The notes under the pieces were generated by a model. The model made no database searches. It saw only the letters and a program-made list of their open reading frames with translations, and was not told where the DNA came from. 64,000 nucleotides of DNA from Laspinema palackyanum D2a. Lineage in GTDB: Bacteria; Cyanobacteriota; Cyanobacteriia; Cyanobacteriales; Laspinemataceae. The translations under genes and the position numbers were made by a program. This document shows positions 13,792-17,107 of this stretch, one piece after another (the stretch's first letter is position 1; the number at the start of each line of letters is the position of its first letter). The stretch lies in the NCBI GenBank assembly GCA_025370845.1, contig JAMXFF010000021.1, positions 1 to 64,000 of the forward strand, written 5' to 3'.

Positions 13792-14766
13792 TTAATCTTC
13801 CTCGACTAACTCATCACCATCATCATCGTATGTCGTATCTTCCACAGACATTAAAGCCGCAATTTCCTCTTCATCAATTGCATACTCAGACTCTCGATCT
13901 TCTCGGGACATTAAGCGCCCCGATGCTTCTAACCAGTCTAATAGAGAGGGTTCTTGACTCCGGGGCAGAACATCCGCTATTGTATAGCGAGATTCTTGAC
14001 GCAACGACGGATTTTCAATGGGTTTGGGTGGATTTTCCTGTAGAGGCACCGGATGACCTAAATCGTCGAAACAGTCTTTGCGAGTTCCGGGAAAAGCGTC
14101 GATTAACAGCTTTAACATCTCCGAATCTTCCTGAAACACTGTCATCCATACTGACCAAAAACCAATAGCCTTGGCAAGTTGGATTACGCTTTTTGTAGTA
14201 ATATTCTTATTGTTAAGATCGTCAAGCTGTTGTTTCGCTATATTCCACGCTTCCCGACGTTTCTGAGATCGCCGGTCTGTGACAGGTGGCGGGTCTTCGT
14301 CATTTCCGTCATACCGTTCTAACTTGGTTAAATCAAGAGTGATTTGCGCTTTTAGTTTTTGAGACGGATTTAAAGAAAGATTGATTTCAATGATTCCTCC
14401 TTCTCCATACTTAAAAATGCTGGCTGTATTGTCGCGATCCGGCCAATAGTACAGCGCCAAAACAGTCTTTTCACTTGGCAGGCTTTCGCCCTCCTTAAAT
14501 TTCCATCTTTTTTCCATAGACCATCGCTTATTCGTATTGCAATTGAGGCAAGTAGGTAAAAAATTATTCCACTTTTCTTGACAGCTAGGATACCATTTTT
14601 TCGGCAATAAATGTTCGATTGCTACATTGCTCAGGGGTCTTTCACAATAAGAACAATATTCACCCAGTCTGTTGATGATATCCTTCTGTGCTTTGGTATA
14701 AGGATGAAATTTTTTAGGTACACCACCCTCATCTATTGGACAAGACCCTCGGTCAACTGGTCTCAT
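13792..14766 (-). CDS. HNH nuclease of a Septu-like defence operon (PtuB-type)
   Basis: 324 aa. The HNH/zinc motif lies at about residues 38-80: CSYCER, then IEHLLPKK, then NNFLPTCLNCN. The C-terminus is strongly acidic (DDDGDELVEED). The start ATG overlaps the TAA of the ATPase gene by one base (TAATG), so translation is coupled. In Septu systems an ABC-type ATPase (PtuA) and an HNH nuclease (PtuB) form a complex that restricts phage, and both the order and the motifs fit. It is longer than typical PtuB because of the C-terminal extension, which I do not recognise. The function is inferred from family and context. Confidence 0.82.
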   Translation of the reverse strand: MRPVDRGSCPIDEGGVPKKFHPYTKAQKDIINRLGEYCSYCERPLSNVAIEHLLPKKWYPSCQEKWNNFLPTCLNCNTNKRWSMEKRWKFKEGESLPSEKTVLALYYWPDRDNTASIFKYGEGGIIEINLSLNPSQKLKAQITLDLTKLERYDGNDEDPPPVTDRRSQKRREAWNIAKQQLDDLNNKNITTKSVIQLAKAIGFWSVWMTVFQEDSEMLKLLIDAFPGTRKDCFDDLGHPVPLQENPPKPIENPSLRQESRYTIADVLPRSQEPSLLDWLEASGRLMSREDRESEYAIDEEEIAALMSVEDTTYDDDGDELVEED

Positions 14767-16067
14767 TATTCCTGCTCCTCGCTCATTCCTACTGCTTCCC
14801 TTTTGATTTCTAAATAAGCATGATAAGCTGGGTTATCACTATAGGGCATCTCTAGTTCATCCAGTTTAATTTTGAGTTGCTCTTTTCGTTCAGGCGAAGC
14901 ATCTTGAGATTCCTCTAAGACGGCATAGTATTCCTTAGCGGCTGCTTTCATTTTTAGAAAGCGTTCACTTTTTTGCGGTAATTCTACACCCATGACATTT
15001 TCCGTAATATCCTCAATACTTTGATCATAATATTCGCTGGTTTCTTGCGGATCTTCTAGGTTGAGCAGTTTTCCCTTCCGGAGAGACTGAACAATAAAGG
15101 GAGAATGAGTTGTAGCAATAAACTGGATTTCTGGAAAGGTCCGATGTAAATCCTCGACAATGTGCCGTTGCCAACTCGGATGCAGATGTAAATCAATTTC
15201 GTCAATTAAGACAATACCGGATGTTTTTTTGGCGGCATCTCTCCCAAAATGAGGATTCAGCATGGCTGCACGATAGGCGATATCTGCAACCATTGCCAGG
15301 ACATTGCGTACCCCATCACTGAGCATTCGCAGGGGTAACAAGCGTCCATCTTTCGCCTTAGCCAAAACATCCCCTTGTCCAGCTTCCCCAAATACATAGG
15401 AGATATCATTCCAGTCTTCTTCTTTCATGCAGTCATAAATGGCATTTTTAACCACTAAAAACAAATCGCTCTCCTGACCCGACTTGAGCGACTTTTCTGT
15501 TTCTTGCTTCAACCATTGAATGAGTTTTTTCACATTAGCGTCAGGATGCAGACAATTCAAATAGCCTTGGATTCGAGATGCGCTTACCCCTGGAGAATCA
15601 GATTTTTTAGGATTGGGAATCCACAGGCGATCGGTTCCATAATAAGCGACTAAGGGTAACCGAATATTTTCTCCATTATCCGCTTTTTCCCGAAGTTGTT
15701 TTGATAAATTTTCAATATTTTTATCCTTCGGAGGTCGGTTTCTCCCAGTTACGGATTGGGTCCAAACAATATCCTGTCCTTCAAAGACTCCTTCCCAAGT
15801 CACTGAAGCCGGATATTGGGGTTGAATATCCGGGGTTTCTCCCTGTTGATATTTTTGCTGGCGGACGTCATCATTCGTAATATTTCGGAAAGAGCCTTCT
15901 TCATGAAACCCTGACAATAAATCGCTAAGGCCAATCGCTAAGGCATCGAGGATGGCCGTTTTCCCCTTGCCGTTATCCCCAATGATCAGGGTAAAAGGAT
16001 CGGAAAGTTCAAAGGTTCTCTCGTCAAATCCTTTGAAGTTATGAGCGGTAATTTTGTAGACTTTCAT
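14766..16067 (-). CDS. AAA/ABC-type ATPase of a Septu-like operon (PtuA-type)
   Basis: 433 aa ATPase of the overcome-lysogenisation/RecF-like class. All motifs are present: Walker A GDNGKGKT (30-37), signature LSDG (249-252), Walker B LIDEIDLHLHP (287-297) and H-loop ATTHSP (His 321). About 110 further residues follow, with a charged C-terminal helix. It lies 56 bp downstream of a degenerate paralogue and is coupled to the HNH gene. Its expected job is to sense infection or nucleotide state and license the HNH nuclease. The ATG at 16067 begins MKVYKITAHNFKGF, as in related proteins. Confidence 0.85.
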   Translation of the reverse strand: MKVYKITAHNFKGFDERTFELSDPFTLIIGDNGKGKTAILDALAIGLSDLLSGFHEEGSFRNITNDDVRQQKYQQGETPDIQPQYPASVTWEGVFEGQDIVWTQSVTGRNRPPKDKNIENLSKQLREKADNGENIRLPLVAYYGTDRLWIPNPKKSDSPGVSASRIQGYLNCLHPDANVKKLIQWLKQETEKSLKSGQESDLFLVVKNAIYDCMKEEDWNDISYVFGEAGQGDVLAKAKDGRLLPLRMLSDGVRNVLAMVADIAYRAAMLNPHFGRDAAKKTSGIVLIDEIDLHLHPSWQRHIVEDLHRTFPEIQFIATTHSPFIVQSLRKGKLLNLEDPQETSEYYDQSIEDITENVMGVELPQKSERFLKMKAAAKEYYAVLEESQDASPERKEQLKIKLDELEMPYSDNPAYHAYLEIKREAVGMSEEQE

Positions 16068-16123
16068 GGTTTTATCAATTGAAAAAGGATAATATATGAA
16101 ATAATAGGTATTTGGCGTTTTTT

Positions 16124-17107
16124 TTAGCTTTTGAGTTGAACGATAGATAGGGATGGAAGGGAAGTAAATTCGGAGTTTAGCGGGGGGGTAGTTGCCGTAA
16201 ACTGGAGTGCAGGAAAAATACTGGTGAGATGTTTTAACAAGGATTCTACCACAGGTGCATCAAGATGTAAACCAATCTCATCAATAAGGACGATTCCTGG
16301 AGTATCTCTAATTGCGTGTTTTGTTAACCGAGGATTGAGGACAACCGCACGATAAGCAATATCGGCAACGAGGACCGCCAGATGGCGCTGGGCTAGATCC
16401 ATCTCGAATAAGCATTGACCATTGAGCAAGAGTTTATCTTGATTCAAGTCATACTGGATATTCTGCAAATCCAAACAGGAGGCTATCGCCTCTTGAACCG
16501 CTACAAAAATTTGCTTAGGATTATGGTCTTGTTGGCTAGTGAATTCCATTATTTTGAACCATTCTAATAATCGCCGTTCTGGAGATTTTGGGTTAAACCA
16601 GTGGCGGTTACCCAGGGTTCGGGTTTGGGGTTTCTTCGCTTTCACGGTTCTCACGGCTTTTTGATGCCATCCCTTGCGATTTTCTCCATAGTAGACCACC
16701 AGGGGTAAAATGACCCCAGAACCCTTACGCACTTGGGCTTGAAGTTCCTGAGAAATCTTTGATAAAGATCCCGGCCTGGTTGTTCCGCCCTTGGGTTGTT
16801 TAATGATTCTCTGCCACTCAATGCGCTGTTCTTGAATCATTCCTTGCGTGGAAATTCGCACGGGATATGCTTCCCTATTCTTTGTCATTTTCCCAGGGAG
16901 ACTGCGTATATCTTCTGTCCGGATATTGCGAGATTGAATGTCATCAAACCCTAAAAATAGAGAACCAGCAGCAATGGCAAGGGCCTCAATTAGGCTGGTT
17001 TTGCCACTGCCTTGGGTTCCTACAATTAGGGTCAATTTCTCGTCGAATTGACAGCTATAATGCTCAAATTTTCGGAAATTTTCAAGTTCAATGCGATGAA
17101 TTTTCAT
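16124..17107 (-). CDS. Degenerate paralogue of the Septu-like ATPase
   Basis: 327 aa from the ATG at 17107; a TTG at 17119 would add four residues. It aligns along its length with the next gene: MKIHRIELENFRKFE, Walker A GTQGSGKT, LPLVVYYGENR and VADIAYRAVVLNP all have counterparts. Walker B LIDEIGLHLD is kept. The signature LSDG is replaced by DLAQ, the H-loop His is replaced by Pro (ATTPPL), and the last ~110 residues are missing. This could be a non-hydrolysing regulatory subunit or an eroding gene. The frame is fully open and the gene leads the operon, which favours a retained function. A C7 run sits at the altered H-loop. Confidence 0.75.
   Translation of the reverse strand: MKIHRIELENFRKFEHYSCQFDEKLTLIVGTQGSGKTSLIEALAIAAGSLFLGFDDIQSRNIRTEDIRSLPGKMTKNREAYPVRISTQGMIQEQRIEWQRIIKQPKGGTTRPGSLSKISQELQAQVRKGSGVILPLVVYYGENRKGWHQKAVRTVKAKKPQTRTLGNRHWFNPKSPERRLLEWFKIMEFTSQQDHNPKQIFVAVQEAIASCLDLQNIQYDLNQDKLLLNGQCLFEMDLAQRHLAVLVADIAYRAVVLNPRLTKHAIRDTPGIVLIDEIGLHLDAPVVESLLKHLTSIFPALQFTATTPPLNSEFTSLPSLSIVQLKS

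Follow-up and report, generated by a model that had tools for sequence, protein, structure and literature searches.

What is the role of a second ATPase with altered catalytic motifs in a PtuAB-type defence operon, and what is the acidic extension carried by the nuclease of that operon? Both questions are raised by a locus in a 64,000-nucleotide stretch of DNA (the window) from Laspinema palackyanum D2a (contig JAMXFF010000021.1). A first-pass annotation of the window described three minus-strand genes, coding for two ATPases (here A1 and A2) and an HNH nuclease, as a Septu-like operon with two ATPases in tandem, the first of them catalytically altered. We analysed the operon in the genome of the window (G000) and in its relatives, which are given as G-numbered genomes. 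The operon is real, conserved and more unusual than first noted, but it is made of known parts, and we regard it as a new variant of Septu. A1 is conserved but, judging by its motifs, is probably a non-working pseudo-ATPase, and the nuclease carries a fused copy of the cyanobacterial protein DUF3134.

An extra ATPase in a PtuAB-type operon

Gene calls agreed with the proposed layout, in which a gap of 56 bp separates A1 from A2, and A2 and the HNH gene have one base in common in a TAATG overlap. The assignment to PtuAB was likewise upheld by PADLOC matches and motif comparison. The best PADLOC match was PtuA1 for both ATPases (6.9e-80 for A1 and 2.4e-139 for A2) and PtuB1 for the HNH protein (5e-70); with NCBIfam, the ATPase–HNH pair of the window matched PtuA (4.5e-63) and PtuB (6.7e-12), both under the curated cut-offs. 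A2 matched the solved PtuA structure 8ee4 (E 9.3e-53) and has a complete motif set (Walker A, LSDG, Walker B and H-loop), and the residues of the CxxC...H...N...CxxCN pattern were invariant among the 7 PtuB proteins compared. The window operon departs from the composition of classical Septu, which is exactly one ptuA and one ptuB. There are two ATPase genes in G000 and G006, and three in a row (A1, A2 and A3) in the Planktothricoides-type relatives G011 and G012.

Short A1-like frames were found among 148 relatives in G006 (82% identity), G011 and G012 (50%) and G013 (46%). A profile built from four A1 sequences recovered the same five genomes, the window included, from 368 genomes of the order (E 1e-176 to 1e-189; best five candidates per genome scored), and the next-best match (2e-98) lay in a full-length frame. 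A contig scan with a single A1 query gave no match, while a scan with four A1 sequences gave five loci, of which two carried A1 (L109, L110), one had its first 17 residues only (L113), and two were remote. In G005 the contig end falls 17 residues into the start of A1. Every A1 lies directly behind the same hydantoinase/oxoprolinase gene (~1216-1278 aa), which was found in 14/14 genomes of the family. The first-pass annotation had asked for conservation of A1 beside PtuAB homologues, and for sister strains in which A1 is free of stop codons and frameshifts. A1 adjoins PtuA in G006, G011 and G012 and a PtuA remnant in G013, and none of the five A1 genes is interrupted.

A1 and A2 align with 31% identity over 325 columns (E 3e-48), a homology that on this alignment is far beyond chance. 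The missing C-terminal stretch of A1, put at ~110 residues in the first-pass annotation, amounts to 106, and the kept Walker motifs, altered signature and lost H-loop His described there were all recovered. Walker A is retained in all five A1 proteins. Their signatures read MDLAQR, MNLSQR, LDKQNR (twice) and LNDGDR, the last, from G013, being the least altered, whereas LSDG is present in all six A2/A3 proteins. The H-loop His is absent from 5/5 A1 proteins; the catalytic position after the Walker B Asp holds Glu only in the window's A1, the other four having Asp; and LHLHP of the A2 type has become L(H/R)LD(A/S).

In ABC-type dimers, each ATP site is completed by the signature of the partner. 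If A1 paired with A2, the site on A2 would thus face the lost signature of A1. The site on A1 would face the intact LSDG of A2, but A1 is without the H-loop His and, in 4/5 cases, has Asp in place of Glu. The first-pass annotation had considered one active and one inactive site conceivable. By their motifs, both composite sites instead miss an element and look impaired, though the A1 of the window retains its catalytic Glu. A1 may still hold ATP.

In a tree of 24 ATPases (G256, G261, G264 and G266 were left out, having been missed by the Walker A pattern), the five A1 proteins from two genera formed one clade and the six A2/A3 proteins another, each with 100/100 support. Therefore, the split between A1 and A2 is older than both genera. 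The ratio of non-synonymous to synonymous divergence (dN/dS) of A1 was 0.47 and 0.48 within the two genera, compared to 0.19 for A2, and 0.19-0.26 between genera, where synonymous divergence (dS) is near saturation. A1 is thus less constrained than A2, yet not free.

Could A1 be a duplicate in decay, and the join of PtuB to DUF3134 a functionless product of accidental read-through? We consider this unlikely. The faster evolution of A1 would fit such decay, as would the lack of an A1 match in five members of the genus and the state of the G013 locus, where A2 is reduced to an 84-codon fragment, no ptuB was matched and A1 is intact. However, all five A1 genes are stop-free although 108 of 327 codons in A1 are one step from a stop, and A1 has the same C-terminal end (...V(Q/N)LKS or LKSL) in both genera at a cross-genus identity of 45-50%. 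An eroding duplicate was rejected as an account of A1 on the strength of five intact genes, one clade and a common end. Separately, a shortened PtuA of 383 aa in G085 (L031 5962-7113) has LSDG and H-loop intact and no adjoining PtuB.

A DUF3134 domain at the C-terminus of PtuB

In the HNH protein, the C-terminus noted earlier as unusual and acidic (residues 252-319 of 324) matches the Pfam family DUF3134 (PF11332; E 9.9e-25, 87.2 bits against a gathering cut-off of 25). A chance acidic tail is ruled out by this match. Because the DUF3134 part does not begin with Met, separate production of this part seems less likely than a genuine fusion.

The fusion follows the multi-ATPase loci. Among the 368 genomes there were 14 close PtuB matches (E 1e-91 or better), four fused and ten not: DUF3134 was fused to PtuB in 4/4 multi-ATPase loci that retain ptuB and in 0/10 single-ATPase relatives. 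The ten unfused PtuB frames were 226-264 aa long (one with an internal stop), with one ATPase match per genome. Frames with fused DUF3134 measured 346 (G000), 348 (G006), 736 (G012) and 273 aa (G011, at a contig end); all others among the matches listed were under 150 aa. In G012 the fusion is a single 713-aa frame, in which PtuB is followed by an acidic Ser/Glu repeat linker, encoded by a 90-bp tandem repeat of 8.3 copies (L029 3946-4684), and by DUF3134 at 640-707 (81.7 bits). In G011, one contig breaks off inside the linker, after the N-terminal part, and another opens with the C-terminal part; we infer that the two pieces are one gene. G028 has a full PtuA followed by a ptuB broken into two overlapping frames (L041 5456-6101).

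Absence of the fusion from ten relatives is what a read-through accident would predict. Against this, DUF3134 was joined to PtuB in two genera, each time in frame and exactly at the native N-terminus of the domain.

Of 148 relatives, 146 have DUF3134, mostly as a small protein that stands alone, and all four genomes with the fusion also keep the stand-alone gene. In 114 of 141 genomes, the stand-alone gene is followed on its own strand by mraY (identified by TIGR00445), no more than 2.5 kb downstream, counted over 146 stand-alone rows with the four fused rows excluded; 5 of the 146 genomes carrying DUF3134 are missing from this count. Stand-alone DUF3134 is thereby a candidate cell-wall-linked protein. 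In the window genome, a PAP_fibrillin gene stands divergent on its other side (L053 4178-6875). Likeness to the stand-alone protein and the mraY neighbourhood would also suit a fused domain that acts only as an anchor, tethering Septu to the cell envelope or to some other host complex and sensing nothing. From the sequence we judge this unlikely: DUF3134 matched nothing else in Pfam, and no membrane domain was detected.

Where did the fused domain come from? It is 81% identical to the stand-alone protein of its own genome in the window and 85% in G012, compared to cross-genus identities of 51% between fused copies and 56% between stand-alone copies. A tree of 26 DUF3134 domains needs two origins, and a single fused clade was rejected by the approximately unbiased (AU) test (p-AU 1.58e-9), with a short alignment of 76 columns and four fused rows from two genera. 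One common fused ancestor without later adjustment is rejected by the same test. Twenty-two alignment columns follow genus (two via a gap), and one, the Met in GRLM, is common to the fused copies alone and would be the sole hint of a common fused ancestor. Between fused copies and their own stand-alone genes dS was ~1.2-2.0. The fused domains are therefore not recent copies, whether this value dates the captures or the latest exchange. Taken from these comparisons, DUF3134 appears to have been captured twice, or the fused copy to have been kept matched to the host protein; a single origin with later concerted evolution at the protein level may be the alternative to two captures.

A further possibility is that the tail is an acidic self-inhibitor, in which DUF3134, with the repeat linker of G012, serves as a nucleic-acid mimic covering the HNH site or a PtuA surface until activation, and host likeness reflects origin only. 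The net charge of the fused 79-residue C-terminal part in the window is -17, compared to +2 for the HNH part, and the G012 linker, with its repeat array, carries -136 and the tail -19, which would fit such a mimic. We nevertheless think it improbable, as an acid tail need not track the host protein, yet the 22 columns do; the conserved NPSL...SLLDWLE..GRL is not simply acidic; and the HNH part of G012 is itself at -12.

Variation along the locus and its genomic setting

Between G000 and G006, amino-acid identity was 73.5% for the HNH part, the least conserved stretch, 82.0% for A1, 91.6% for A2, 96.7% for the hydantoinase and 93.7% for the DUF3134 part. The last of these values comes with a low dS (0.039) and so cannot alone demonstrate purifying selection; the low dS suggests that the DUF3134 part was recently exchanged. 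DNA identity between G011 and G012 was 99-100% through the end of the hydantoinase gene, A1 and A2, 91-100% in A3, and 83-85% in the first part of ptuB. For this second pair, a dS of 0.21 in the first part of ptuB, compared to 0 in A1 and A2, points to exchange by recombination; in G000 and G006 the dS of the HNH part is not raised, which points to faster amino-acid change. In both sister pairs, no part of the operon diverged more than the HNH core (window 14100-14590; L028/L029, beginning of ptuB).

The neighbours of the operon are the hydantoinase/oxoprolinase gene on one side and a Band_7 gene on the other. A protein 61-75% identical to the PDC-M30A-like protein of G012 is encoded behind the hydantoinase gene in G001, G002 and G008, with DUF5131 further on; G003 has DUF5131, and in G004 the Band_7 gene follows at once. 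In G012, PDC-M30A/B-like genes lie beyond Septu. The site thus holds different defence candidates per species (L029 1370-3305; L081, L084, L085, L090) and appears to be a minor hotspot of defence genes. On another contig, the window genome encodes a further Septu pair of the ordinary kind (PtuA 448 aa, PtuB 232 aa; G000:C57, L036 6824-8837), and PtuA proteins similar to that of this pair occur in G001-G004, G006 and G007.

Table 1. Genes, domains and motifs of the operon, in positions of the window
Feature	Position	Strand	Length or basis
A1, truncated PtuA paralogue, predicted pseudo-ATPase	17107..16124	minus	ATG start, 327 aa
A2, full-length PtuA	16067..14766	minus	433 aa
PtuB-DUF3134 fusion (HNH protein)	14766..13792	minus	324 aa
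PtuB HNH part of fusion	14032..14766	minus	library matches and comparison with relatives
DUF3134 domain of fusion	13810..14013	minus	Pfam match
A1 Walker A GTQGSGKTS, kept	16994..17020	minus	motif alignment
A1 degenerate signature MDLAQR (A2: LSDGVR)	16385..16402	minus	motif alignment
A1 Walker B and next residues LIDEIGLHLDA (A2: LIDEIDLHLHP)	16256..16288	minus	motif alignment
A1 H-loop region TTPP, His lost (A2: TTHSP)	16181..16192	minus	motif alignment

Proposed mechanism and relation to known systems

How might these parts work together? Starting from the architecture, conservation, motif loss and host likeness observed, we tentatively favour a Septu variant with several PtuA paralogues, a structural A1, and a DUF3134 host mimic acting as bait or anchor on the nuclease. 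A1 and A2 (with A3 in Planktothricoides-type genomes) would co-assemble in the PtuA oligomer. A1 would hold ATP without effective turnover, as a fixed capping or brake subunit, and would hard-wire an asymmetry that one-ATPase Septu must reach using identical subunits. In Septu, ATP reportedly inhibits the complex, and its three PtuA dimers are said to differ.

The fused DUF3134 would mimic the stand-alone protein and engage whatever that protein engages, possibly at the MraY/peptidoglycan step, a target proposed because the stand-alone gene usually adjoins mraY. In this way the nuclease would sit, as bait or anchor, where phages disturb the host, and this disturbance would free or trigger PtuB, followed by cleavage of DNA or tRNA as with other PtuABs. 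We consider doubtful the stronger version, a bacterial "integrated decoy" in which a Septu nuclease has twice captured host DUF3134 as bait for phage proteins attacking the cell-wall step, coupled to a heteromeric PtuA machine with its asymmetry encoded in partly pseudo-enzymatic paralogues.

In a review table, a PtuA hexamer is given as recruiting two PtuB (PMC12198126), which we count in favour of the bait-or-anchor variant. Septu EcB88 requires its Walker and HNH residues and cleaves tRNA-Tyr (PMC13096335); tRNA-Tyr is degraded by retron-Eco7 PtuAB, and E. coli Septu is reported as targeting DNA (PMC11555353). The matches listed for PtuA/PtuB structure, PtuB C-terminal fusions and cyanobacterial Septu included no tandem PtuA and no such fusion.

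Several results weigh against a host mimic on the nuclease. The mraY link is by neighbourhood only and is absent in 27 of 141 genomes, and the fused cases, all from one family and one locus, amount to no more than two events. The low dS that accompanies the high identity of the fused domain in the G000/G006 pair counts on the same side. No paper on DUF3134 was found in the literature library searched, and the search for a solved-structure relative of the domain found none (best E 0.27). There was no match to DUF3134 by tblastn in 50,697 phage records and no confirmed match to its alignment in IMG/VR, and therefore no phage copy or ligand is in sight.

Mobile elements were also searched for the other parts. 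Among 39 PtuA loci in IMG/VR, full PtuA genes never stood in tandem and DUF3134 was not matched, the HNH partners being 209-254 aa long, and plasmids gave no match to fused PtuB. A1 matched nine plasmid records, none of which reached 60% identity; for the best eight, short stretches aligned at 23-26% or 35%. Carriage of the fusion by phages or plasmids was thus not borne out by the phage, IMG/VR and plasmid searches.

If the bait-or-anchor variant is true, it would give a first handle on DUF3134, and the encoded asymmetry of the PtuA paralogues would be a natural dissection of the oligomer into ATP-hydrolysing and nuclease-holding subunits. The closest known system is Septu itself (PtuAB, 8ee4), which likewise pairs a PtuA-type ATPase with a PtuB HNH protein in one operon with overlapping genes. 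The operon described here differs in its two or three ATPase genes, of which the first encodes a predicted pseudo-ATPase lacking ~106 C-terminal residues, and in the C-terminal DUF3134 copy on PtuB. The PtuA-PtuB effectors of retron I-A (Ec78/Eco7) are the same ATPase–HNH pair, but the operon contains no reverse transcriptase gene; retron RNA was not searched for.

For the ATPases, a parallel is found in CFTR and TAP, heteromeric ABC ATPases with a degenerate half and one remaining consensus site. They resemble A1 and A2 as a paralogous pair in which one partner has degenerate motifs; they differ in that they keep one consensus site, whereas both A1:A2 sites look impaired. For the fusion, the parallel is with the integrated decoys of plant nucleotide-binding leucine-rich-repeat (NLR) receptors, in which an immune protein carries a fused host-protein copy and the host keeps the original. 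PtuAB is an HNH-ATPase system and not an NLR, and no effector targeting DUF3134 is known, but the fused DUF3134 copy likewise stays like a retained stand-alone original. If the mimicry is true, the operon would show a defence nuclease of bacteria dressed in a host-protein copy; such arrangements are best known among the immune receptors of plants.

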